Shown here one piece after another: positions 5,233 to 31,096 of a stretch of 64,000 bases of DNA. The notes under the pieces are model-generated. The model saw nothing but the letters and a program-made list of their open reading frames with translations, made no database searches and was not told where the DNA came from. Numbering within the stretch: position 1 is the stretch's first letter; the number at the start of each line of letters is the position of its first letter. The stretch is from contig NC_087104.1 in the NCBI RefSeq assembly GCF_963855985.1, positions 3,038,001 to 3,102,000 on the forward strand. The letters are read 5' to 3'. The DNA comes from Ostrinia nubilalis (taxonomy: Eukaryota > Arthropoda > Insecta > Lepidoptera > Crambidae). Both the position numbers and the translations under genes were made by a program.

Positions 5233-5236
5233 GTAC

Positions 5237-5456
5237 TGTAGCGAATCCCGAGGGAAAGTACTTTTTTAAAAAGACAAAAATGACTTCGCACTGATTTTAA
5301 TAAGAAAACAAAAATTACAATCAAAAATAATTAACACACAAAATACAAAATCCGAGAGCTCCGATCGCAGCGACGGCTGAAGGCAAAGTGAGCCCGAGTC
5401 GCACTGCGCGCTGGCTTATATAGGGGCGGTCGCCGCAAATCTTCACATCTCCTACA
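5237..5456 (-). repeat. 3' LTR of gypsy-1
   Basis: This 220-bp repeat matches 11756-11975. In element sense it carries TATATAAG about 35 bp from its start, a plausible TATA box. It has an ATTAAA further in but no AATAAA. Confidence 0.95.
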
Positions 5457-5500
5457 CGGCCTCTCCTGACAGGAGACCGTCCTCGGTCTCCTTCTTCTTT
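5457..5500 (-). other. Polypurine-tract region and hairpin before the 3' LTR
   Basis: In element sense the bases next to the LTR are purine-rich (AGGAGAGG), as expected of the plus-strand primer. Just upstream, 5472-5491 is a perfect hairpin with 8-bp arms (GGAGACCG/CGGTCTCC) and a 4-nt loop. Confidence 0.5.
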
Positions 5501-5731
5501 CAGTCCAGCAGTGGCATGGACAGTCCCGGACCGCTGGGTTGGGGTCCACCAACGGCGTGGCTAGTGCTTGAGGCACCTGCCAGCCCTTGTAGCCCAGACG
5601 TAGATGGTTGCTGCCCGTCGTCCGAAGGTAGACCAGAAGCTCGGACGGAAGGTGATTCCGGGCTCAGGTCCTCGACTTGGTCTTCACGAGACTGTGCGGC
5701 CACAGTCTCAAGTTCTTCATTTTCGCTGTCT
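5500..5731 (-). CDS. Small acidic Ser/Pro-rich ORF in the gypsy-1 3' region
   Basis: An open frame of about 77 codons with no ATG at its start. It opens right after an AG acceptor-like sequence (TTTAACACAG, cut at 5731/5732) and ends at 5500. Composition is rich in S, P, E, D and G with no transmembrane segment, so it does not look like an envelope protein. It could be a 3' exon reached by splicing or non-coding. I do not recognise it. Confidence 0.3.
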
Positions 5732-5860
5732 GCACCTGTGTTAAATTAAGCGAAAACATTTAAGACATAAACTCACGTATCGATAAGTTTTACAACGCTT
5801 AACATCCCACACATAAGACGCGTCCGCCATATAAATAGGATGCGAAACGTCGCCAGGGTA

Positions 5861-6059
5861 GATTAAGTCATAGGCACGACGTTAGCGTAACTTAATCACG
5901 GCTCAAGTCATAGGCACGACGTTAGCGTAACTTAGCCCGGCGAGACAGAGGCACGACGTTAGCATGTCCGCCCCCAATTGTTAGGAAAGAGGCACGACGT
6001 TAGCGTTCCCCAACAATTGCACAATCCAGTAAGGAAGCACTACGTTAGCTATTACTGGA
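5861..6059 (-). ncRNA. Array of five hairpins with a shared loop, gypsy-1 3' UTR
   Basis: Five successive inverted repeats start just after the pol stop (6064-6062, element sense). Arms on the plus strand are: unit 1, GATTAAGT with ACTTAATC (5861-5868/5890-5897); unit 2, GGCT and AAGT with ACTT and AGCC (5900-5908/5930-5937); unit 3, GGCG and GACA with TGTC and CGCC (5939-5947/5965-5972); unit 4, CAATTGTT and GGAA with TTCC and AACAATTG (5975-5987/6006-6019); unit 5, TCCAGTAA with TTACTGGA (6025-6032/6052-6059). All five loops hold GCACGACGTTAGC (starts 5874, 5914, 5951, 5992, 6037; unit 5 has one change). Stem sequences differ but pairing is kept, which is the signature of a selected RNA fold. 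Function is unknown. Confidence 0.75.
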
Positions 6060-6061
6060 GT

Positions 6062-9000
6062 CTATCCAAAGAATAGTTCACAAACCACTCTTAGATAGCC
6101 AGGCATCTTACCATCAAAGTAAGCAGCACACACATCAGGAGTCCATTCTCCGCGCCATGCGACCATGTACTCCGCTGCTGCCTGCGTCGACTTTCCATAG
6201 GAGCCGGCCAGGAGTTGCAGCTCGTAGCGCCCGTGCGGGAGAACCTTCACCACGCGATACGGGCCGCGCATGCCGGAGTCCAACTTCCCCGTTGATTGAG
6301 TTTGCTTCTTAACAAAAACCAAAGAATTTAGTTCAAAACCGCGAGGCGCCTTTCTGCCTTGGTTTACATAGGCGTCTTGAGTCTGCTGGTTTCGCCTGAG
6401 ACGCTCCGACGCCCTCTGCCGACTCATCTCGCGTAGAGCCTCCCTGTTCGGGCTGGACCCGTCGAGTGCCACATCACGCACTAGGCTTCGGAGAAGAGGT
6501 GTTGCCGCATCAATGCCCACCAGAAGATTGAGCGCAGAATATTGAGTCGTCCTATGTCGAGTGATATTCAGGACCAACTGCAACTTCCAAATAACATTTG
6601 GCCACCGTTGCTGTCTATGATTTGCTTCGATGCGAATCATGTTCAATACTGTCCGGCAGTAGCGTTCGACCTGCCCATTGGACTGGTGCATTTCGGGTGT
6701 GATTAGATGTACCTCACACCCCATATCCTTGACCCAATCCAGAAATTCAGTGCTTTGGAACATGCGACCTCTATCCGCAACAATCAATTTGGGAGACCCA
6801 AATAATGAAATGGCGTTCGTAACATGACGCTTTAATTCGTTGGAGTCTTGTCGATACATTGGGTACAACAGGGTGTACTTGGAAAAAGCGTCAATCACTA
6901 TGAGAACGTATCGGTAACCATCTACTTCGGGAAGCGGTCCTAGAGCATCCATATGGACAGTCTCGAAAGGTACGTCTGGTTTTTCCCAAGAGGTAATGGG
7001 CTGTAATGGAGCCCGTGGGACTTTTTTATGCGAAATACACACCAAACAGTGCGCGATATATTTTTGGGCAAAACTACGCAACCCGGGAAACCAGAAATGT
7101 TTAGTAACAAGGTCAACCGTCTTTTCAACTCCGGGATGTTCGTGTTCATCGTGAAACACGCGCAATAGGCTAAGTCTGTGCCCTTTAGGGATATAGCACA
7201 GAAGTCGGGAAGGTTCACCAGTAGGTGTATGTCTAACATAGAGAATGTCATTCTTAACGACATATCTACTCGCATCCAACTGACCATCATGTAGTTGCTG
7301 GATGAGAGTTCGGGTTTCCTCGTCGGAAGCCTGAGCAATCTGCGCCCAGTTCAGTGGCTTCTGAACCGTACACACATTGACCGGATTCCGACTGAGATAA
7401 TCGGCGTGCGACATTAGTGAACCCTTCCGATAGTCCAAATCGAAGTCAAAATCCTGCAGGTACACCCACCACCGAGCCACCCGCGGGAGCAAATCCTTTT
7501 TCCGCTTGGTAAGTTTTAACGCGTTGCAATCGGTGACTACGGTGAAGTGCACACCCACAAGATAATGCCTGAAGTGTTGTAAGGCTTTGACTACTGCAAG
7601 AGTCTCAAGCTCATACGAGTGGTACTTACTTTCAGCTCCCTGCGCTAGCTTACTATAGTAAGCAACCACTCGCTTGTGACCACCCTCGTGCACCTGCAGA
7701 AGAACGGCCCCGTAGCCGATGGAACTTGCATCGGTATGCACCTCAATCGGTAACGAAGGGTCGTAAATCGCAAGTACGGGCTCACCAGTCAGACACTCGA
7801 TGATCTCTTTGCGGGCAGCCTGCTGCTCAGGGCCCCAATTGAATGCTACGTCCTTACGCGTCAGAGCCGCTATACAAGCCGTCTTTTGAGCGAAACCGGG
7901 TATATACCTCCTAAAATAGCTGGCTAAGCCCATAAACTGACGGACTTGTTTCACGTTTTTCGGCTCGTCGGCTTCCGTTAAAGCCCTAACTTTGTCAACG
8001 CTCGGCCGCACCTGACCTTCACTGATACTACGGCCTAAATACTCAATCGTGGGTGAGAGGAAGGAGCATTTCTTAAGGTTGATAGAAAAACCCGCATCAG
8101 TCAAAGTTTTAAGTACTTTACGCAAAATAACTAACCCCTGATCTATTGTCTGACTTAGGATCAGAACATCATCAATGTAGACGAGGATTTCACCAGACTC
8201 TATATGTTCCCGGAGCGTTTTGGCGATAATTCGCTGATAGACGACCGGGGCATTTGCAAGACCATATGGCATTTTCAAATATTCGTAATGCCCCTCGGGC
8301 GTTACGAAGCCAGTTAGAGGAACGGACTCCTTATCCATAGGAATCTGATGAAACCCTGTCGCCATGTCTAAGCTCGTAAAATATTTGTTTCGTCCTAGCC
8401 GGTCTATATGGTCATCGATTCTCGGCAATGGAAAACGGTCCTTCAGGGTCACGTCATTCAATTTCCGAAAATCGACGCACATTCGATCGGAGCCGTCCTT
8501 CTTTTTGACAAGAAGAATCGGGCTGGCATAATCAGATTCCGACTCCTGAATTATCCCTTTTGCCGATAAGTCCTTGACTATCTCCCGAACACGAAGTGTT
8601 TCCGCGTGGGAAAGGCGATACGGCCTATAGTTAACTGGGGTGTCACTCTTCAGTCCGATGGCCATGCTACCAGTGTTCACGGTAGAAGTAGCTGTACCGG
8701 ATATTAAAAATTGAGAAAACTCATCTATTATTGCCAACAATTGTTGCAATTCATTTTCGACAAGAGGTGTGTTCACAGGAACAGAAACATCAGACTGAAT
8801 AGTCATTACCCTATCTGGCTCGATAGTTTCTCTCGTAAGGAGTTGGCGGTCGCGCGTGCGAATATAACGAACGCCCTCTCTATTGAGCACGTCTGTACCA
8901 ACTATAACCGGCGTGTTCATGTACTCAGACGCAACTACGAACATGTCAACTTCAAGAGTTATACCGTCAAATTCGATTGGCAAAGTCACGTAAGAGGTAC

Positions 9001-9219
9001 TTTCGATTTCTTGACTACCAAGTCCCTTTAATATTCGAAATGCCGGCTTAAGCGCGCAACTAAAATGTCTCAACAAACTTGACGATATAAGCGATATCGT
9101 TGAGCCGCTGTCAATTAATACATCAACCGGCACTCCCTGAATCACTGCAACAATAACGTCATTGTTGCGGGTAGTCTCATTTTCGCGGCAAAAATTGACA
9201 TTATTTTTATTACGAGACT
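6062..9219 (-). CDS. gypsy-1 pol: protease, RT, RNase H, integrase
   Basis: The frame is open without a stop from the Harbinger insertion edge (9219) to the stop at 6064-6062. Domains in order are: aspartic protease (V-L-I-D-S-G-S); reverse transcriptase with the catalytic V-Y-I-D-D-V motif preceded by F-T-S-L-D-M-A-T-G-F-H-Q-I; RNase H opening with E-V-H-T-D-A-S-S; integrase zinc finger (H-x4-H and C-x2-C around H-F-W-F-P-G); integrase core with the three acidic residues in V-H-M-D-A, V-A-D-R-G and G-Q-V-E-R; and a C-terminal region with a G-P-Y-R-V-V chromatin/GPY-like motif. Nothing catalytic appears lost. There is no natural start codon because pol was fused to gag before the insertion. 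Confidence 0.93.
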
Positions 9220-10434
9220 CACGGCCGAATACTGAAACGCCATTTAAATATTTGACGGCTTCTCAAATAGTTAAGCAGCTCCTAAACTTACATTTCGCAT
9301 ACTCAAAACAATATCTGAGCAGTTCTCAATTTGTAAGCACCTCTCAAATTAAGTTGCGCTTAAACGCCACTCAAATGAATTTTCGCATACTGAAACGCCA
9401 TTCAACGCTAAGCATTACTCAAACAACTGTCAAATCGTCTTAAGCAGCTGTTAAATTTGAGAGTGCTTGCCCGGTATCTTAAATCCTATTCTTATACCTA
9501 AATCGACCTAAATAGTGGTAAATAATGTGTGTCATCGTTATCATTTCTTTCGAGCCTTGAGGAAATACCTAGATCTATCGCAGGAACGCAATAAGGCTGA
9601 ACGCTATTGAAAAATATTATTATAATGACATGCAATTCCGAGCGAGGTTCCGCGTCTCTAAAGAAACGGTGTTGTTTCTGGATTCATAATTTGGAAGCTC
9701 TTTGAAACCCCTCACCAAACGCCATACAACCAGTGGACCAAATACTTATTATAACCCTACTGTTCTACGCAACGGGAAGTTATGAACGTGTACTAGGTGA
9801 TATCTTCCACATCTAACAGCCAACTGTGCATCGTATAGTGCACGAAGTAACAACCAAAATAGCTGCTATGAAATCGCAATACATAAACATGCCTATTTCT
9901 GAGGAATAAGGGGACATCGCATAGCAGCATTTCCAAGAGTTGTTGATTTGTCAATTTGATGCTCTGTCAACAATGATAAATGTCAATTGTGGTTACGTTT
10001 CGGTCCACGATCGCCACTTAATAGATTTCAACAATAAAAAGTATCACCTTTAAAATTATTTTTTTAATTAAATAAAAATGCAAGCATTATTTTTTTTATA
10101 TGACAAAACGAGATTTATATATAATAGAAACTAAAAATAAACTGTTCTATGTTAAGTTGATTGAGTATATTTCCATAAAAGACAATACATAAACAAACGA
10201 TGCTGCGTGTAATGGATAAAAAACGCAAAGTTATCATTTGTGTAAATGAAAACATACTTTTTTTGGTAAATGTTGCCATTATGTAAACATTTGAGAGCTG
10301 CTTAGCTGATCACGGCTTCAAATCCGTTGAGTGGCGTTTGAGAATACCATTTAAAATTGAAGGATACTTAAATTTAGGAGCCCGTCAGCTGAGTGAAAGA
10401 TTTGAGTAGCGTTTCAGTATTCGGCCGTCAGACT
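9215..10434 (+). mobile_element. PIF/Harbinger-type DNA transposon relic inside gypsy-1
   Basis: The element spans 9220-10429 and is flanked by direct AGACT copies (9215-9219, 10430-10434). Its ends are inverted copies of ACGGCCGAATACTGAAACGC. The 5-bp duplication is unusual for this superfamily (normally 3 bp), so the exact ends are uncertain. Between about 9630 and 9990 on the plus strand there are decayed pieces of a HARBI1-type transposase: F-R-V-S-K-E-T-V-L-F-L, then P-L-T-K-R, then F-Y-A-T-G-S-Y-E-R-V-L-G-D-I-F, then V-H-R-I-V-H-E-V-T, with stops and frame shifts between them. Confidence 0.75.
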
Positions 10435-11545
10435 TTTGTTTGGCAAAACAATTTTCAGTTTTATGGCCTGTCTTTTTGCAGAACGAACACGTATCGGGCT
10501 TTGTTGGCACAAAAACAGGTTTTGGACTCGCATTACTGTTACTAGCTGAGGAGGAGCGTTCCTCCTGGTCGGTCTTAGATCTCTTATTGCAATTTGCCTG
10601 TCTGTGTCCCAACCGGCCACACGAAAAACACTTGCCTTCATCGAACCGTCTTTTTCTCGGAGGTAAATTAGCGACGTTTTTGTTATTCCCCGCAAACGTA
10701 TTTTGGGACACGACACGAGCAGAGTTAGCCTTAGACGCACTAGGCTTCACGTATGTTGAGAAAAATTCAACAAGGTCGTTAGGCGACAGTTTGGCGTTTG
10801 TAGCGGAGGCCTTTATTTGAGGGTCGGTGATTCCGCGTATCACGATTGCCGATATCAATTCGTCACTAAGACCCCGAACTATGCGTAAACGAAGGAGTGA
10901 GCGACGGGCGTAATCAGCGTAGGTAGTGTAGTTATCCGAGTTTGTACTCATTACCTCAAACAAAATGTTAGCAATGTCCGGAGTTTTAGGACACAAAGGT
11001 TTAAATTCCTTTTTAAAACTGGTCCAACTACGCTCCGTCGTCACCCACTCGTTTAGCCACGTCTTTGCCTCTCCTTTTAAACAGTTTCCTATACGTGAGA
11101 GACATTCGTAATCACTCCAGTTATTGAGAGACTTTGCTCGATCTACCTCCTCACACCAATCGTCAATATTGTGGAAACTAGGATCGAAATTGGAAATGTA
11201 AAAATGTTGGCTAGACCTTACCGTACCGATAGAACGAATAGCATCCACGATGCGGTCCGTCACCGCAGACGGTGCATTCACCTCACTAACACGATCCGAT
11301 TCCGCGGCCGGCACTGGACACGCATGCTGCGGGACGCTCGGCGGTTCCGGCGGGAACGGCGGCGTCATAGAACGTTCCGCGGGGCGCGCGCACGACGCGG
11401 GCCTATAGGGCGAAGGAGACGTTGCGCACCTATTTCGTTCACATGACCTATTTCGCGGCGATACATTACGTTGCACAGGTGACGACGTATTTTGCGCGGC
11501 TACCTGACTTTCCAACGTTCTAAGGCGGGTTAACATCACAGTCAT
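10385..11545 (-). pseudogene. gypsy-1 gag, truncated by the Harbinger insertion
   Basis: The first in-frame ATG is at 11545. The capsid-like region (I-D-D-W-C-E-E-V-D, then E-A-K-T-W-L-N-E-W, then F-K-K-E-F) is followed by two CCHC zinc knuckles, C-F-S-C-G-R-L-G-H-R-Q-A-N-C and C-S-F-C-K-K-T-G-H-K-T-E-N-C. The native gag sequence stops at the insertion edge (10430). The last residues to the stop at 10385 are read from the Harbinger terminus. Before the insertion the frame would have continued into protease. Gag packages the RNA into virus-like particles. Confidence 0.9.
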
Positions 11546-11705
11546 CCATATCACGTTTTAATCTATCGTCCGGAGCACGATCGCGGTATTTACTACGTCG
11601 GCGCTCTCGGCTGCTATAACGACTTCTACGACGCTCACGTTCACGATCACGATCATCACGGTCACCCATTTTTCTCTTTTTACGCTTCGCGCCGGTAGAC
11701 ACCAA
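11520..11705 (-). CDS. Arg/Asp-rich ORF overlapping the gag start of gypsy-1
   Basis: This short frame encodes a very basic, low-complexity RD/RE/RS-dipeptide stretch (M-G-D-R-D-D-R-D-R-E-R-E-R-R-R-S). It overlaps gag and differs from it by a +1 shift. It may be the true gag N-terminus joined by frameshifting or broken by one indel, or it may be an upstream ORF. The composition resembles RNA-binding or splicing-factor tails. Confidence 0.4.
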   Translation of the reverse strand: MVSTGAKRKKRKMGDRDDRDRERERRRSRYSSRERRRSKYRDRAPDDRLKRDMDDCDVNPP

Positions 11706-11734
11706 ATCAGAATAGCCAGTAAGATAGAATCACG

Positions 11735-11755
11735 TTGATCCTATCCCACTTCTGA
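11735..11755 (-). other. Primer binding site candidate of gypsy-1
   Basis: Right after the 5' LTR, in element sense, the sequence is TCAGAAGTGGGAT. From memory this is complementary to the 3' acceptor/T arm of animal tRNA-Leu(CAA) (…ATCCCACTTCTGA), but it starts about five bases inside the mature CCA end and lacks the usual leading TGG. Confidence 0.45.
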
Positions 11756-11975
11756 TGTAGCGAATCCCGAGGGAAAGTACTTTTTTAAAAAGACAAAAAT
11801 GACTTCGCACTGATTTTAATAAGAAAACAAAAATTACAATCAAAAATAATTAACACACAAAATACAAAATCCGAGAGCTCCGATCGCAGCGACGGCTGAA
11901 GGCAAAGTGAGCCCGAGTCGCACTGCGCGCTGGCTTATATAGGGGCGGTCGCCGCAAATCTTCACATCTCCTACA
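11756..11975 (-). repeat. 5' LTR of gypsy-1
   Basis: 220 bp, the same as 5237-5456, bounded by TGTAG/CTACA, followed outside by the GTAC target duplicate. It should supply the promoter, with TATATAAG in element sense. Confidence 0.95.
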
Positions 11976-12080
11976 GTACATTAATTAAAGTAAGATTATC
12001 ACGTATATTCTTAGAGCGAAAGACAATTATTAAATTGTAATAGAAAAGAAGTTAATACATTTTACGTGGCAAGTCGCGAT

Positions 12081-18951: not shown

Positions 18952-19612
18952 GCTACGAGGAATCGCTACGGGCCGCTACGGAAGCGTGCTACGTATCTTC
19001 GTAGTCGATAATTCTACGGAGCTCAAGGCTACGGCAGATAGCGAAGGATAGATAGTCGGAATTAACGACCATTGTAATTTAGCTCTCTGATAAAATACCA
19101 GTTGATTTTCTTGAAGTTGAACCAAAATTATTTCAAGTTTTATTACCAAAGGAATAGTGTTTAAAATAAGTTGGAAAAACCTACTTCATTCTGCAGCAGT
19201 TTCAGCAGCTGTCGATTAAGGCTGAGTTGCACCATCTTACTTGGATTTTACAAACGTCAATAATCTGTCAAATTCCATACAAAAATCACATATTGTATTT
19301 GTAAATAAAGGTAGCAGTTTGTATTCGGACAAAAAGGTGTCGTTGCTACTGAAAATATTTTTACAAAAATCACGGTGGTTGAACATCGGGCGATATTCGT
19401 AAATATTTGCTTCTACCTCGAATACAAAAGTTTCGGTTCGGAATTTTAGTACAATACAGTCCAGTAAATCCGTGCGTTTTGTTATTTCGCATTGAACGCT
19501 ACGGCGCGGCGTAGATAGCTACGAGCTACGGGCTACGAGCTACGGGCTACGAGCTACGGGCTACGAGCTACGGGCTACGGGCTACGAGCTACGGGCTACG
19601 GGCTACGAGGCG
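18952..19612. repeat. GCTACGG/GCTACGA minisatellite and flanking related words
   Basis: 19500-19612 is a tandem array of the 7-mers GCTACGG and GCTACGA, mostly alternating. The same words are scattered at 18952-19040 and again at 34482-34556, suggesting a dispersed element with CTACG-rich ends. Confidence 0.6.
19217..19300 (+). repeat. Partial MITE, AAGGCTGGGTTGCACCA family
   Basis: Matches the left half of the complete element at 19788-19907 (TAAGGCTGAGTTGCACCATC, then ACAAACGTCAATAATCTGTC). No right end is seen. Confidence 0.55.
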
Positions 19613-20858: not shown

Positions 20859-22875
20859 ATGCTGAGTCACGAACGACGAATACAATGACAGGTTCGTGGA
20901 AATTGTCCAAACGACTGGGTCTAAGTTCTTTAAAACCCGTCGTCCAAAAGGAACCAAAAAGATCTCTGACCTCACCAATAAACTTATGGAAGAGAGACGA
21001 AACTTGGTTCTGCAGTCCTCTGAAGATGCTGCTCAGTATCGGCGTCTTAACAGACAGATCTCCAAGTCTTTGACTCGCGATCTACGCCAATTTAATACAG
21101 ATCGTATTAAAGAGGCGATTGAGCGTAACAAAGGCTCTAAAGTGTTCGCTAGGGATCTGTCTGTTGGCCAAAGTCAACTGACCAAGCTGAAGACCGAGGA
21201 TGGCAGAGACATCTCGTCGGGGCCTGAGTTATTGGAAGAGGTTGAGAAGTTCTACGGACAATTATACACGAGTGTACGTACACCTGTCACAAATCTAGCC
21301 GAAGACCCAAGAGCTAGACTGACCCGACACTACACCGAAGATATCCCGGACGTCAGCCTGTACGAGATTAGAATGGCTCTCAAACAGCTGAAAAACAACA
21401 AGGCACCGGGTGATGATGGAATCACGGCTGAGCTTCTGAAAGCAGGCGGAACGCCGGTACTAAAGGCTCTTCAGAGGCTGTTCGATTCCGTCATACTTGA
21501 GGGAAAAACGCCTACGGCATGATACAGAAGTGTGGTGATACTTTTTTTCAAAAAAGGCGACAAAACCTTGTTGAAAAATTATAGACCCATCTCACTTCTG
21601 AGCCATGTCTACAAGCTGTTTTCGAGAGTCATCACGAATCGTCTCGCACGCAGGCTCGACGACTTCCAGCCTCCCGAACAAGCCGGTTTCCGAAAAGGCT
21701 TTAGTACCATAGACCACATACATACGCTACGGCAGATTATACAGAAGACCGAGGAGTATAATCAGCCACTTTGTCTGGCGTTTGTGGACTATGAAAAAGC
21801 CTTCGACTCGATCGAGACCTGGGCAGTGCTACAGTCTCTCCAACGGTGCCAAATTGACTATAGATACATCGAAGCGCTGAAGGGCTTGTACGAAAACGCC
21901 ACAATGTCGGTCCGCCTCCAGGATCAGAACTCGAAACCTATCCAGTTGCAGCGAGGGGTGAGACAGGGAGATGTCATATCTCCGAAACTGTTCACCACCG
22001 CCCTGGAAGATGTTTTCAAGCTTCTGGACTGGAGCGGATTCGGCATAAATATCAACGGCGAGTATATCACACACCTTCGTTTCGCGGACGATATCGTAGT
22101 CATGGCTGAGACCGTGGAGGACCTAAACACAATGCTCGATGGCCTCAGTAGAGCCTCTCAACAAGTGGGTCTTAAAATGAACATGGACAAGACAAAAATT
22201 ATGTCAAATGCCCGTGTTGTACCCACTCCTCTGAAGGTTGGAGACACTACACTCGAACTTGTTGACAATTATGTATACCTGGGACAAACAGTCCAGTTAG
22301 GTAGGTCCAACTTCGAGAAAGAGGTTAATCGTCGAATCCAACTCGGCTGGGCAGCGTTCGGGAAGCTTCGCGAAATTCTCACGTCCGAAATACCGCAGTG
22401 TCTCAAGACAAAAGTATTTGACCAGTGTGTGTTGCCAGTGATGGTGTATGGCTCTGAGACGTGGTCGCTTACTATGGGCCTCATAAGAAGGCTCAAGGTC
22501 ACCCAAAGAGCGATGGAGCGTGCTATGCTCGGAGTTTCCCTGCGTGATCGAATCAGAAATGAGGAGATCCGTAGGAGAACCAGAGTGACTGACATAGCCC
22601 GCAGAATCGCTAAAATCAAGTGGCAGTGGGCGGGGCACATAGCTCGAAGAGCTGATGGCCGCTGGGGCAGGAAAGTTCTTGAGTGGCGACCACGAGCTGG
22701 AAGACGTAGCGTGGGCAGGCCTCCCACTAGGTGGACCGACGATCTGGTAAAGGTCGCGGGAAGTACCTGGATGCAAGCGGCGCAGGACCGGTCTTTGTGG
22801 AAATCCTTGGGGGAGGCCTTTGTCCAGCAGTGGACGTCTTTCGGCTGAAACGAACGAACGAACGATGCTGAGTCA
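20859..22875 (+). mobile_element. 5'-truncated RTE-like LINE with 11-bp target duplication
   Basis: The LINE occupies 20870-22864 and is bounded by direct copies of ATGCTGAGTCA (20859-20869 and 22865-22875). The 5' end starts inside the ORF, so the endonuclease domain is absent, which is the usual result of incomplete target-primed reverse transcription. The 3' end is (CGAA)n directly after the stop codon, with almost no 3' UTR. The short intact duplication points to a fairly young insertion. Confidence 0.92.
20872..22848 (+). pseudogene. LINE reverse transcriptase with one nonsense codon
   Basis: The frame is continuous from 20872 to 22848 except for one TGA at 21520-21522, where the family would be expected to have tryptophan. 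Before it lie the finger/thumb-side regions (K-N-N-K-A-P-G-D-D-G-I). After it come K-N-Y-R-P-I-S-L-L, A-F-V-D-Y-E-K-A-F-D-S, G-V-R-Q-G-D-V-I-S-P-K-L-F and the catalytic R-F-A-D-D-I-V. The C-terminal R-A-M-L-G and W-Q-W-A-G-H-I blocks then lead to the R-P-P-T-R-W-T-D-D tail. The apurinic endonuclease is missing by truncation. The protein would copy LINE RNA at a nicked target. Clade is assigned by tail type and motif style, not by phylogeny. Confidence 0.88.
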
Positions 22876-26871: not shown

Positions 26872-29780
26872 ATGAAGGTAAAGTCTATGTAATCAAAGAT
26901 CTTAGTACAGCAATATTAGGCAGGCCATCAATTGATAGTATGAATATTCTAAAAGTTTGTGCTATCTCAAATTCAAGTCAGATCAGTGACACACATTCAA
27001 ATGTTTTAGTAGAAAAAGAATTCCCAAAAATCTTTGATGAGTTAGGGGTTTTCAAAGATGAGTTTCACATAAAATTAATTAATAATCCTAAGTCATATGT
27101 CCAGGCAACACCTCGCAGTGTATCAATACCTCTTTTGCCCAAAGTTAAGGAAGAACTGGATAGATTGCAAAGATTAGGTATTATTAGTCCAATTGAGGAA
27201 CCTACTGATTTTGTGTCACCAATTGTGGTAGTGCTTAAGAATGATAAAGTGAGAATTTGCGGTGACTATACACAAGTAAACAAAAATATTTTGAGGCCAG
27301 TTTATCCAATTCCTAAGGTACAAAATACATTAAGTAGACTGAAAGGTGCTAATTATTTCTCTAAAATCGACGCTACTTCAGGATTTCATCAAATTCGTCT
27401 GGATGAGGAGTCTAAAAAGCTGACAACCATTATTACACCTTTTGGTAGGTATATATACAACCGTTTACCATTTGGACTTAATTGCGCACCTGAATATTTC
27501 AGTATGAAGTTCTCAAATCTGCTGAAAGACCTAAACGTAGCAATACATGTCGATGACATTCTGATTTTTGAACCTACTAAGGAATCCCATGATCAGGTAC
27601 TTAGAGAAGTTTTAAAAAGATTGCATAATGAAGGGATAACAATTAATAAAAGTAAATGTGTGTTTGGGGTAAAGGAGGTAAGTTATTTGGGACACATTGT
27701 TAACAAAGAAGGAATAAAAGTAGATCCAGACCGAATCAAAGCCATTAGTGAATTTAAAAATCCGTCTAATAAAAAAGAATTACTACAATTTTTAGGCATG
27801 GTTAATTTTGTAGGAAGGTACATTCAAAATAAGTCTCAAATCCTTGCACCATTACATGAGCTTTTAAAAGAAGACCGGCTATTTATTTGGGGTTACCTTC
27901 AGAGACAAGCATTCCAAACTATAAAGGACAATTTACTAAGGTCACCCACTCTAGCACATTTTGATCCGGAAATGAAAATAATTATTTCAGCAGATAGTAG
28001 TTCTTTTGGGCTAGGAGCAGTTTTATTACAAGAAGATAAAAAAGGCCAAAGATCAGTAGTGATGTATGCTAGTAGAACATTAACAGAAACCGAAAAGCAT
28101 TATGCACAAATAGAAAAGGAATGCTTGGCTCTGACATGGTCAGCTGAGAAATTTAGAGATTATATATTAGGTATTCCTATTATACTAGAAACTGACCACA
28201 AACCTCTGCTGCAAATATTGCAAACAAAACCATTTGATGACCTTAGTCCGCGACTCTTAAGATTTAGATTAAGGTTGACTCGTTTTGACTATGAAGTAAA
28301 GTATATCCCTGGGAAAGAATTGGTAGTAGCAGATGCCCTGTCCAGACAGCCACTGCCAATTTATCTTAGTTCAGATAAGGAAAAGGAGTTACAATTCAAT
28401 ATCAATTCACTTGTCAGTGAAACTGTGTCAGAGAACATTCTATACAAAATAAAATCCAGTCAGAAAAACTGTAACATATGCACTCAAATTATAGACTTTA
28501 CAGTTCATGGGTGGCCTGCAAAACATCTGTTAGGTAATTTGAAACCATATTATCAGTATCGGGGCAACTTCTCAGTGGAAGGGGAATTTCTTTTGTTTAA
28601 TTCAAGAATTGTAATACCTGACAACATGCAACAAGAAATCTTAGATAGAATTCATGAAGGACATTTAGGAATTACAAGGTGTAGGGAGCGTGCAAAACAG
28701 TCCGTTTGGTGGTTAGGTCTATCAAAACAAATTGAGGAAAAAGTTAAGACTTGTTCAAACTGTATAGAAACATCACAAAATTATAAAGAGACCATGGTAC
28801 TAGACCCACCACCAGATAGACCCTGGCAGAAAATAGGAATTGACTTATTTAAATTTTCAAACCATTGGTATTTAGTTGCAGTTGACTATTACTCTAGATA
28901 TCTGGAAATATTTAAACTACATGATTTGACTGAAGACTGTGTAATAGTTAAATGCAAAGAAATGTTTTCTAGGTATGGAATTCCAGAGGTAGTAAGGTCA
29001 GATTGTGGTACACAATTTAGAACAAAGTTTAATAATTTTGCCAAAGAGTATGGGTTTCAGTCTATAACTAGTAGTCCCTACTATGCACAAAGTAACGGTC
29101 TAGCCGAATCCGGAGTAAAGATTGCAAAGTCTCTTCTAACAAAAAATAAGGATATTTATCTAGCTTTACTAATCTATCGAAACACCCCTTCTGAGATAGG
29201 TTATAGTCCAGCAGAATTAATGTTTAACCGAAAACTTAGAGATAACCTTCCTATTATATCTAGTAAACTTGATAACCCAGTAGTCTTAGGTCAAGAATTC
29301 AAACAAAAGATGTTGGAAAAGAAACATAGAAATGGGTGTTATTACAATAAGAGACATAGAGCAAGGGATCTGCCAGAACTGAATACTAATGATAGAGTGT
29401 GGGTTACTGATTTGAAAATATATGGAACAGTTGCATCAAAATGTAAGGAACCTAGATCATATATAATTAATACTGAAAGAGGGAAATTTAGAAGAAATAG
29501 ATGGCATTTGAAGTTGGCACCTACTGAAACTATTTCACCAACGGTAGGAGAGTATGTCACAAATAAAAATGTAATTTTAGATGAGGAGCATTGTAAGGGT
29601 TCTGCTGATATTACAAATCCTGTTGAGGATCAGATTGTTGATTCTGCAGAATCCATTGAAGTTAATCCTTCTAATTCTAATGTTAGTAGCTCGGAGGAAA
29701 CTAAATTTGAACAAAATAATACCAGACTTAAAAGATCTGTAAAGCGTCCTGCTTATCTAAATGACTATATGTGTTACTAG
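26866..29780 (+). CDS. gypsy-2 pol: reverse transcriptase, RNase H, integrase
   Basis: Open from the edge of the nested element to a stop at 29780. After an L-G-R-P-S-I-D linker comes the RT (K-I-D-A-T-S-G-F-H-Q-I, catalytic H-V-D-D-I-L-I-F). RNase H follows (S-A-D-S-S-S-F-G-L-G-A-V-L-L, then T-D-H-K-P-L). The integrase zinc finger is H-x3-H and C-x2-C (H-E-G-H, C-S-N-C), and the catalytic acids lie in G-I-D-L-F, V-R-S-D-C-G-T-Q-F and G-L-A-E-S. The C-terminus is Ser/Asn/Glu-rich. All motifs are present. An internal ATG at 26940 is the first in this segment but probably not a natural start. Confidence 0.93.
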
Positions 29781-30192
29781 GGTAACTTAACTAAAATAGA
29801 AATAATTGATGTAAACCTCTACCCAAACTTGGTTTCAGCAGTGTAACAAATCACTGAACCCAAGTATTTATTTACGTAGGGCTGAAACCAAGTAACTAGG
29901 TAATACAATTATTTAAGTACATAGAATGTAATAGCTATGTTATGAAACTTAAAAATAGTGGTTAATGTTGCTGTTTAACCTAAGTTTATTGTAACAAAAC
30001 ATGAAAGTATTATTTTGTGTTAGTGTTATGTATGTTGCTGTTTAACATAAATGTATACTGTAACAAAACGGAAGTATTAGTTGTGTACTTATATTAACTT
30101 AAAATTAGCTGCATAATTTATTGTCATTAGCCGTAATACTTGTGTTAATGTATTAAGTTTATCTTAGCATTTCTGTTTCTAAAAAGGGGAGA
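29781..30192 (+). other. gypsy-2 3' UTR with hairpin and tandem duplication
   Basis: CTTGGTTTCAGC (about 29828) and GCTGAAACCAAG (about 29881) form an inverted repeat just after pol. A 45-bp block beginning GTTGCTGTTTAAC is repeated about 65 bp downstream (29967 and 30032). The purine tract AAAAAGGGGAGA abuts the 3' LTR. Confidence 0.7.
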
Positions 30193-30358
30193 TGTTGTAT
30201 CATCTTTGGATTTCTTTAATAGTCTATGATTGTGTTCATTGTCTATGGTACTGAAGAAAGACGGCCATGTTGTTTTGGCATCTTGAGGGAGCTGGTTAAT
30301 AAACATGCAGTGTCAGTAATTCATTCAGTATTTTATTTATCTACTGCCTCTTATCACA
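30193..30358 (+). repeat. 3' LTR of gypsy-2
   Basis: 166 bp, the same as 23547-23712. It contains AATAAA (GTTAATAAACATG), a polyadenylation signal candidate. Confidence 0.93.
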
Positions 30359-30363
30359 GTTTT

Positions 30364-31096
30364 CAAATTGGTGATGATGTGACCAAGGCAAATATGGATT
30401 AATTTTATATTTTCCTAAAAAGACTTGAACACGTGCGTATGGCTCTTTGAAAATCCTCCTATGTGTTTCCTTGAGTTTTAATCACTCTACATCTCATTTG
30501 AATGGGTTCAGTGCATGAAAAGGTAACGACCAATCAGATAAACAGACATTGTTAAATTCGCAACATTTTCCATCCGCTCTCTTCTTTCATATCAGTACAC
30601 GTTAGTATCAGTACATAGTGCAGATACGTCAACCACGTGTCCATACTCGATCTAACTCGGTTCCCCCTGTGATACTTTATGTATACTTGTAATAAGCGCT
30701 ATATTGCAACGACCATGAGTATCTTGACATAGCGTAGCCCACGTTTTATAAGGACCATAACGTTTTACTAATACTTCAAACTAAGCACTCGCTGTTAGAA
30801 GCCGCGGTTCTCTGAAGCCAAGTGGAGCATAAAGACCACATTCGGGCATTATTGAAACTACTCCAGTGCACATTTTGGCTTCTGTCCAGGTGCAGAAGTA
30901 GGGTGGCAAACACTGCGTAATTAGTACGGACGGCGCATCAAGCTTAACAATCTTATTTAGTTAGAATAGAGGCGAGTTTGGAGTAAAAATGACTGTATTT
31001 TGGGCAGCATTTAAAGTTTTCCAGAACTCTACGTAATTTTGTTTCGCATTTGGCGTTTGGTTTGCAGTGAAAATGTACTGTTAATTTACGGTTCTC
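30364..31096. other. Spacer between gypsy-2 and piggyBac
   Basis: No ORF or repeat recognised. Confidence 0.4.

Follow-up and report, generated by a model that had tools for sequence, protein, structure and literature searches.

Introduction

The constitutive transport element (CTE) of Mason-Pfizer monkey virus and its kin lies behind the last gene and before the 3′ long terminal repeat (LTR), and in some retroviruses the packaging signal psi is absent from spliced RNA. The CTE is a structured, cis-acting RNA carried on unspliced retroelement RNA (PMC3856414), psi is a structured element that marks genomic RNA (PMC5035971), and the plant Retand elements, which belong to Ty3/gypsy, carry arrays of family-specific repeats behind pol (PMC11963269). 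Among LTR retrotransposons, Cer1 of Caenorhabditis elegans has a spliced mRNA and an unspliced RNA that is to be exported (PMC10309623), and the spliced and genomic RNAs of BARE have different fates (PMC3735527). Here we describe an array of five hairpins in a Ty3/gypsy LTR retrotransposon that occupies positions 5237–11975, minus strand, of a 64,000-nt stretch of the Ostrinia nubilalis genome (NC_087104.1, 3,038,001–3,102,000; hereafter the window). The array sits inside a predicted intron of pol, and in related families of the same genome the stems differ in sequence with their pairing kept.

Like the CTE, the array is a structured element predicted on unspliced retroelement RNA. Unlike the CTE, it consists of 3 to 10 small repeated hairpins whose apical loops (in family I, internal loops) are conserved, it lies inside a predicted intron, and its loops change between families. 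Its place downstream of the integrase recalls that of the CTE, yet the predicted intron puts it upstream of the last coding exon. With psi it may share the marking of genomic RNA; it differs from psi in its place near the 3′ end, within a predicted intron of pol, and in being built as a repeat array. Because it falls within the intron, the array is predicted on unspliced RNA only, and marking of this unspliced-only kind is not general among retroviruses (PMC5035971). Family-specific repeats in arrays behind pol are found here as in Retand, but the units described here are hairpins with covarying stems in a predicted intron; in its main text, the Retand paper makes zero uses of hairpin, secondary structure and intron (PMC11963269).

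The predicted splicing resembles that of Cer1, whose export, unlike anything in the array, uses a separate protein (CERV) made from spliced mRNA; a hairpin array is not mentioned in the available text of that report (PMC10309623). A division of fate between spliced and genomic RNA, which we infer here, likens the element to BARE, in which by contrast the genomic pool is uncapped and not polyadenylated and splicing favours Gag, with no array mentioned in the abstract (PMC3735527). The proposed logic of the array is akin to that of psi or a CTE, and its position to that of the Retand arrays. No report of such arrays was found in the open-licence PMC literature, judged by titles and abstract openings, which agrees with a preliminary description of the window, whose author knew of no gypsy counterpart. 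Within that literature the array design, the intronic position and the turnover of loops appear undescribed.

Results

Five hairpins share a loop core in the window

The array is made up of five units, whose coordinates are as follows:

5861–5897, minus strand: hairpin unit 1, core 5874–5886
5900–5938, minus strand: hairpin unit 2, core 5914–5926, inner stem the same as in unit 1
5939–5973, minus strand: hairpin unit 3, core 5951–5963, alternative fold when alone
5975–6019, minus strand: hairpin unit 4, core 5992–6004, strongest stem
6026–6058, minus strand: hairpin unit 5, core 6037–6049, one base changed

The shared core, GCACGACGTTAGC on the plus strand, is exact at 5874, 5914, 5951 and 5992 and carries one change at 6037, and the rest of the window holds no core match with fewer than two mismatches. 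These positions, and the spacings of 40, 37, 41 and 45 bp between core starts, are exactly those first reported. Folded singly in the element sense, four of the five units adopt nearly the same shape: a stem, an asymmetric 1×3 internal loop, an inner stem of two pairs (of three in unit 6037) and a 9-nt loop. Unit 5951 folded singly favours a different fold. Matched one-base bulges had been described for two units; that of unit 5914 appears in the fold, whereas that of unit 5951 is not reproduced. Positions 5865–5894 and 5905–5934 are identical across 30 nt, inner stem included, so the window alone offers four distinct stems and not the five originally counted.

The whole array folds at −73.5 kcal/mol, against −62.1 ± 4.5 kcal/mol for shuffled sequences (z = −2.54), and 1 of 200 shuffles is equally stable. 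The gain over shuffles is only moderate, and the main weight of the case lies on relatives, through the 14 units of three families scored below. A known RNA family was rejected as the identity of the array: Rfam 15 gives no match at gathering score in the window, nor in 10 related loci.

Related families keep the loop and the pairing of the stems

Across the window's own genome (495 Mb, 52 contigs), the exact core occurs 49 times, nearly all of them clustered, compared with 8 occurrences of a reversed control pattern. Fourteen fetched places and the window fall into three families, A, B and C, that bear arrays with the same loop. Family A, that of the window, includes eight places that match the 674-nt query end to end, and its member L022 has four units; family B comprises L011, L017 and L019, which is broken off past the first unit; and family C comprises L014 and L018, together with L020 and L021 as fragments. 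With up to two mismatches allowed, the loop in an 18-nt form occurs 54 times, against 3 for a control pattern. Of these occurrences, 50 lie in the known A–C places, one beside a further family C tail fragment (C31:8297860) and three alone, so that within this genome we find the A–C loop only in this kind of element. In viral contigs we found one exact core match, which by eye resembles phage coding DNA and is taken as chance, and neither a protein-guided scan of those contigs nor the phage records yielded relatives of the array.

Between A, B and C the stems diverge widely. To score covariation we used 14 of the 23 distinct units, after excluding seven near-duplicates and the two broken units of L019 and L021, and paired left base i with right base i+2. 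Paired cells amount to 89.8%, against 64.2 ± 2.4% for shuffled units (0 of 500 shuffles equal) and at most 53.6% for slid partners. The covariation score is 0.703, against 0.217 ± 0.036 shuffled (0 of 500) and 0.097–0.166 with slid partners, and changes on both sides occur in 11 of the 14 pairs, a number attained by 8 of 500 shuffles; the shuffle counts are not probabilities, as related units are not independent. The slid-partner controls retain this relatedness yet score far lower. The 17-nt loop region is 0.91 identical among units of one family and 0.92 between families, whereas the left/right stem sides reach 0.51/0.52 within families and 0.37/0.33 between them. The stem cells that are not Watson–Crick pairs comprise 22 G-U, 3 A-C and 17 others, and the excess of G-U over A-C points to the sense-strand RNA as the selected form. 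The preliminary description had asked whether related elements lack arrays or compensatory change; in these three families of the same genome, arrays are present and their stems carry such change.

The array lies inside a predicted intron of pol

Outside the hairpin units, the retrotransposon is laid out as follows:

5237–5456, minus strand: 3′ LTR of 220 bp, a perfect match to the 5′ LTR; GTAC duplication at 5233–5236
5500–5735, minus strand: predicted last pol exon, an acidic, PSTSG-rich tail ending ...GLSMPLLD and a stop; the homologue P0001 of Loxostege sticticalis has the same kind of tail
5736–6111, minus strand: predicted phase-1 GT-AG pol intron of 376 nt that encloses the entire array, from sequence and homologous gene models
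6112–9262, minus strand: main pol exon, open frame (protease-like, reverse transcriptase, RNase H, integrase) to the predicted donor; the unspliced reading stops at 6062, within the intron
10385–11557, minus strand: gag frame carrying two zinc knuckles that recur in another copy
11756–11975, minus strand: 5′ LTR; GTAC duplication at 11976–11979

Pfam confirms the Ty3/gypsy order of protease, reverse transcriptase, RNase H and integrase in pol; the protease match and a Ty3 capsid match in gag are weak, below the curated cut-offs. Both LTRs are 220 bp long and identical to each other, and the target-site duplication GTAC flanks the element on both sides, so the insertion is probably young. Between gag and pol, a piece of about 1.2 kb (9215–10434) breaks the gag-pol frame of the window copy; its inverted-repeat arms, 9215–9256 and 10393–10434, are 83% complementary. 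Four of seven further copies of family A have pol frames that stay open over 1484 to 1511 aa.

The array had been placed in a 3′ untranslated region right behind the pol stop. It lies instead within the predicted intron, which runs from 6111 to 5736 in phase 1 between the boundaries GATG/GTAAGATG (donor) and TTTAACACAG/GTGCAG (acceptor), and the stop at 6062 would be a read-through stop inside that intron. Splicing is predicted here from sequence together with homologous gene models. Among 118 homologues of the pol end, of which the named ones all come from Lepidoptera, eight gene models (P0001, P0006, P0007, P0051, P0062, P0074, P0092 and P0117) pass from ...GEWTPxxCAAFFE straight into an acidic tail; their hosts are Loxostege, Euphydryas, Scirpophaga, Parnassius, Plutella and Chilo. 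The Loxostege protein P0001 terminates in GQQPSTSG...SGPGLSMPLLD, and a separate frame of the window, 5500–5745, ends likewise. Of the remaining homologues, many (for the most part unnamed frames from assembled reads) stop shortly past the CAAFFE residues, reading into a GTGAG or GTAAG donor, and some gene models (P0005, P0081 and P0113) read into the donor or end elsewhere.

A protein search of the genome returned 756 candidates, and 54 of the 150 scored are close-lineage matches (E up to 1.6e-76): the 14 of families A–C and 40 others. The 3′ ends of these 40 group into nine families, which with A–C make 12. The donor is present in all 54 matches. It stands no more than 10 nt from the anchored pol motif in 43 of 43 (the 40 others and one each from A, B and C), 42 of them in phase 1, and the remaining 11 also have it. 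The one exception to phase 1 among the 43 is L062, a family H copy that is shifted in frame by one base immediately ahead of the intron and still has the donor. An acceptor with an acidic tail is the first-ranked candidate in A, B, C, G and H and a lower-ranked one in D, E, F and I; in J, K and M, where the candidates listed are other frames, it is seen by eye only. No intron-free copy occurs among the 54 close-lineage matches, and a search of the 495 Mb that tolerated up to three mismatches found no spliced junction for family A and none for family H.

The position of the units relative to the stop varies. With one locus taken per family, 4 of the 12 families place a unit motif or two ahead of the read-through stop, and in the other eight the first motif follows it by 7 to 254 nt. 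What the families have in common is the intron and not a fixed relation to the stop, and a place right behind the stop is not supported as the defining one. Rous sarcoma virus has a stability element that protects unspliced RNA from decay, and an element of that kind, or one that acts in translation beside the stop codon, would fit the window, where the array begins within a few bases of the unspliced stop at 6062. This position directly downstream of a stop is not general across the 12 families, in which the intron is constant and the stop is not, and we consider such a function quite improbable.

Distance to the donor bears on another explanation, in which the hairpins would act in cis to slow or block splicing so that enough RNA remains unspliced. 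The first motif begins within 40 nt of the donor in five families (B, E, F, G and M), as would suit such control. Across families (one locus each) the distance ranges from about 15 to 260 nt, and mere hindrance would need no sequence-specific loop, which together make splicing control unlikely.

Other families carry arrays with different loops

Repeated units are present in every intron examined (12 families, one or two loci each), at 3 to 10 per intron by motif count; families with other loops were reached through the pol protein search only. A descriptor of GC, a loop of 5–13 nt and GCCT, with a stem of at least 7 of 9 pairs, matches four times each in A, B, C, D, F and G, twice in E and once in M (outside the intron), and not at all in H, I, J and K (one locus per family). 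Shuffled loci give means of 0.03–0.20 (100 shuffles; the largest single value is 4, in H). This GC-loop-GCCU platform is thus common to 7 of the 12 families (A–G), on which the loops differ: with small variants, they are UAACGUCGU in A–C, GGACUUUAU in D, GAUUCAGAGAU in E, GAACUUGGA and GAACUUUUGGU in F, and AAAUACG and AAACUUUGG in G. Over 27 units of A–G, 90.1% of cells are paired against 65.0 ± 1.8% shuffled, and the covariation score is 0.702 against 0.214 ± 0.026, figures that are favoured in D–G because those rows were chosen by a rule requiring pairing.

With covariation in three and then in seven families, and with G-U exceeding A-C by 22 to 3, it is very probable that selection acts on an RNA fold with a recognised loop, having the anatomy described above; the preliminary description is borne out on this point. 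A DNA-level palindrome or binding site is ruled out by the same 22-to-3 ratio and by the reverse complement, on which the descriptor has no match in any of the 12 loci. Dimerisation by kissing loops through the loop sequence ACGU is not general, that sequence being absent from the D–G loops (by eye) and from one C unit.

Beyond the platform, family I has outer stems GAAC/GUUC or GGAC/GUCC around a near-fixed internal loop, UUCA/UUGGCG, and inner stems that vary and are still paired, and family J has five distinct units with varying paired stems and a loop like UGAWUAYGGUC. The family F intron (L047, L038) looks mosaic, with two family M-like units followed by four GC-loop-GCCU units, as if array modules had been swapped between families. 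Since the read-through peptides of 2 of the 118 homologues (P0017 and P0072) are translations of a similar loop, comparable arrays are suggested in other species.

Neutral expansion of tandem repeats behind pol, which many LTR retrotransposons show, with palindromic units arising by chance, would account for the near-exact tandems of H, M and part of G, and in plant Retand elements tandem arrays that differ by family are frequent in this position (PMC11963269). Such expansion would not diverge the stems with pairing kept while the loop holds at 91–92%, and we regard it as highly improbable.

Outgroup elements

Fifteen less related Ty3/gypsy 3′ ends (29–39% identity, L064–L078) served as outgroups, and the FFE/GT donor was not seen by eye in these 15. 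Repeat arrays follow the pol stop in some of them, clearly in L065, L069 and L078. L078 has ten repeats, eight of them GUCAU-UUGAG-AUGAC, one GCCAU-UUGAG-AUGGC, a compensatory change, and one without the left arm. Hairpin arrays behind pol may accordingly predate the intron or be more widespread than it. Sites resembling acceptors are visible by eye ahead of several outgroup LTRs; those arrays may thus be intronic too, and for this reason we do not claim the outgroup arrays as independent of an intron.

Other features of the window

A second Ty3/gypsy-like pol of 946 aa lies at 26940–31000 on the plus strand; behind it is one imperfect two-copy repeat of about 55 nt (29965–30020 and 30032–30086), and a hairpin array was not seen there. 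A reverse transcriptase frame at 20896–22848 (plus strand) matches RVT_1 only, without LTR-type companions, and is preceded by a 7/14-nt tandem array at 19517–19609. An inverted repeat, 4364–4472/4736–4844, has arms of 109 nt with 97% complementarity; copies resembling it lie near 116 and 12290.

Discussion

We tentatively propose, at a little short of an even chance, that the array is a multivalent RNA recognition element that would be carried on unspliced genomic RNA only and would choose that RNA for packaging. Splicing would remove the array and yield a pol with an acidic tail, and unspliced RNA would retain it, with several copies of one protein occupying the loops simultaneously. Because splicing would delete it, the array could distinguish genomic RNA from mRNA. 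The likeliest binder would be the zinc knuckles of the element's own Gag, over one conserved host factor, since the loops differ between families. Binding to the loops would select unspliced RNA for packaging and reverse transcription, and the spliced mRNA would be translated and not copied. The absence of intron-free copies suggests that reverse transcription uses unspliced RNA, as expected if the array is needed for packaging.

The main rival is a nuclear export or intron-retention element, similar to the CTE or the Rev response element (RRE), in which the hairpins would recruit a host or element-made factor that exports unspliced genomic RNA. Given the predicted intron, genomic RNA would have to leave the nucleus unspliced; in simple retroviruses the export elements known so far are cis-acting and structured (PMC3856414), and export of the genomic RNA of Cer1, a nematode LTR retrotransposon, requires a protein encoded by spliced mRNA (PMC10309623). 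A conserved host factor should hold one loop, however, and the loops vary between families; arrays also occur in outgroup elements without the same donor, and export would not by itself stop exported spliced RNA from being copied. We regard export as possible but doubtful.

Several points weigh against selection for packaging. Rare splicing alone would also explain the absence of intron-free copies, and given the outgroup arrays that lack this donor, the array may work without an intron. Classical packaging signals sit at the 5′ end (PMC5035971), and the array is near the 3′ end, not in the 5′ leader or at the start of gag; the packaging signal of Rous sarcoma virus, moreover, is also on spliced RNA (PMC5035971). 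The zinc knuckles point neither way: GHRQ is common to A, B, C and P0017, but also to ten homologues without an assigned loop, and GHKA in P0072 goes with a read-through peptide that points to a similar loop. Among the 27 A–G units, 9 pairs change on both sides against 8.0 in shuffles, 118 of 500 of which attain 9. Five of the 12 families are without the GC-loop-GCCU platform, and the units of H and M, as near-exact tandem copies, are uninformative on covariation, while those of K are ambiguous.

A broader and more speculative picture is one that we think rather unlikely when taken as a whole: an entire lineage of lepidopteran retrotransposons would carry an intronic, fast-evolving RNA lock of 3–10 hairpins, with a loop or internal loop that changes by family and seven families on one platform, read by the element's own Gag. 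Such a lock would split genome RNA from mRNA and block packaging across families. How a single retroelement transcript is shared out between being translated and being replicated has been called a major question of the field (PMC3735527). The arrays described here, with repeated, covarying hairpins whose loops differ and a predicted intron that splicing would remove, make this question testable with short RNAs and proteins; the conserved loops single out bases for a binding protein to read, and the set of families is a ready specificity series.
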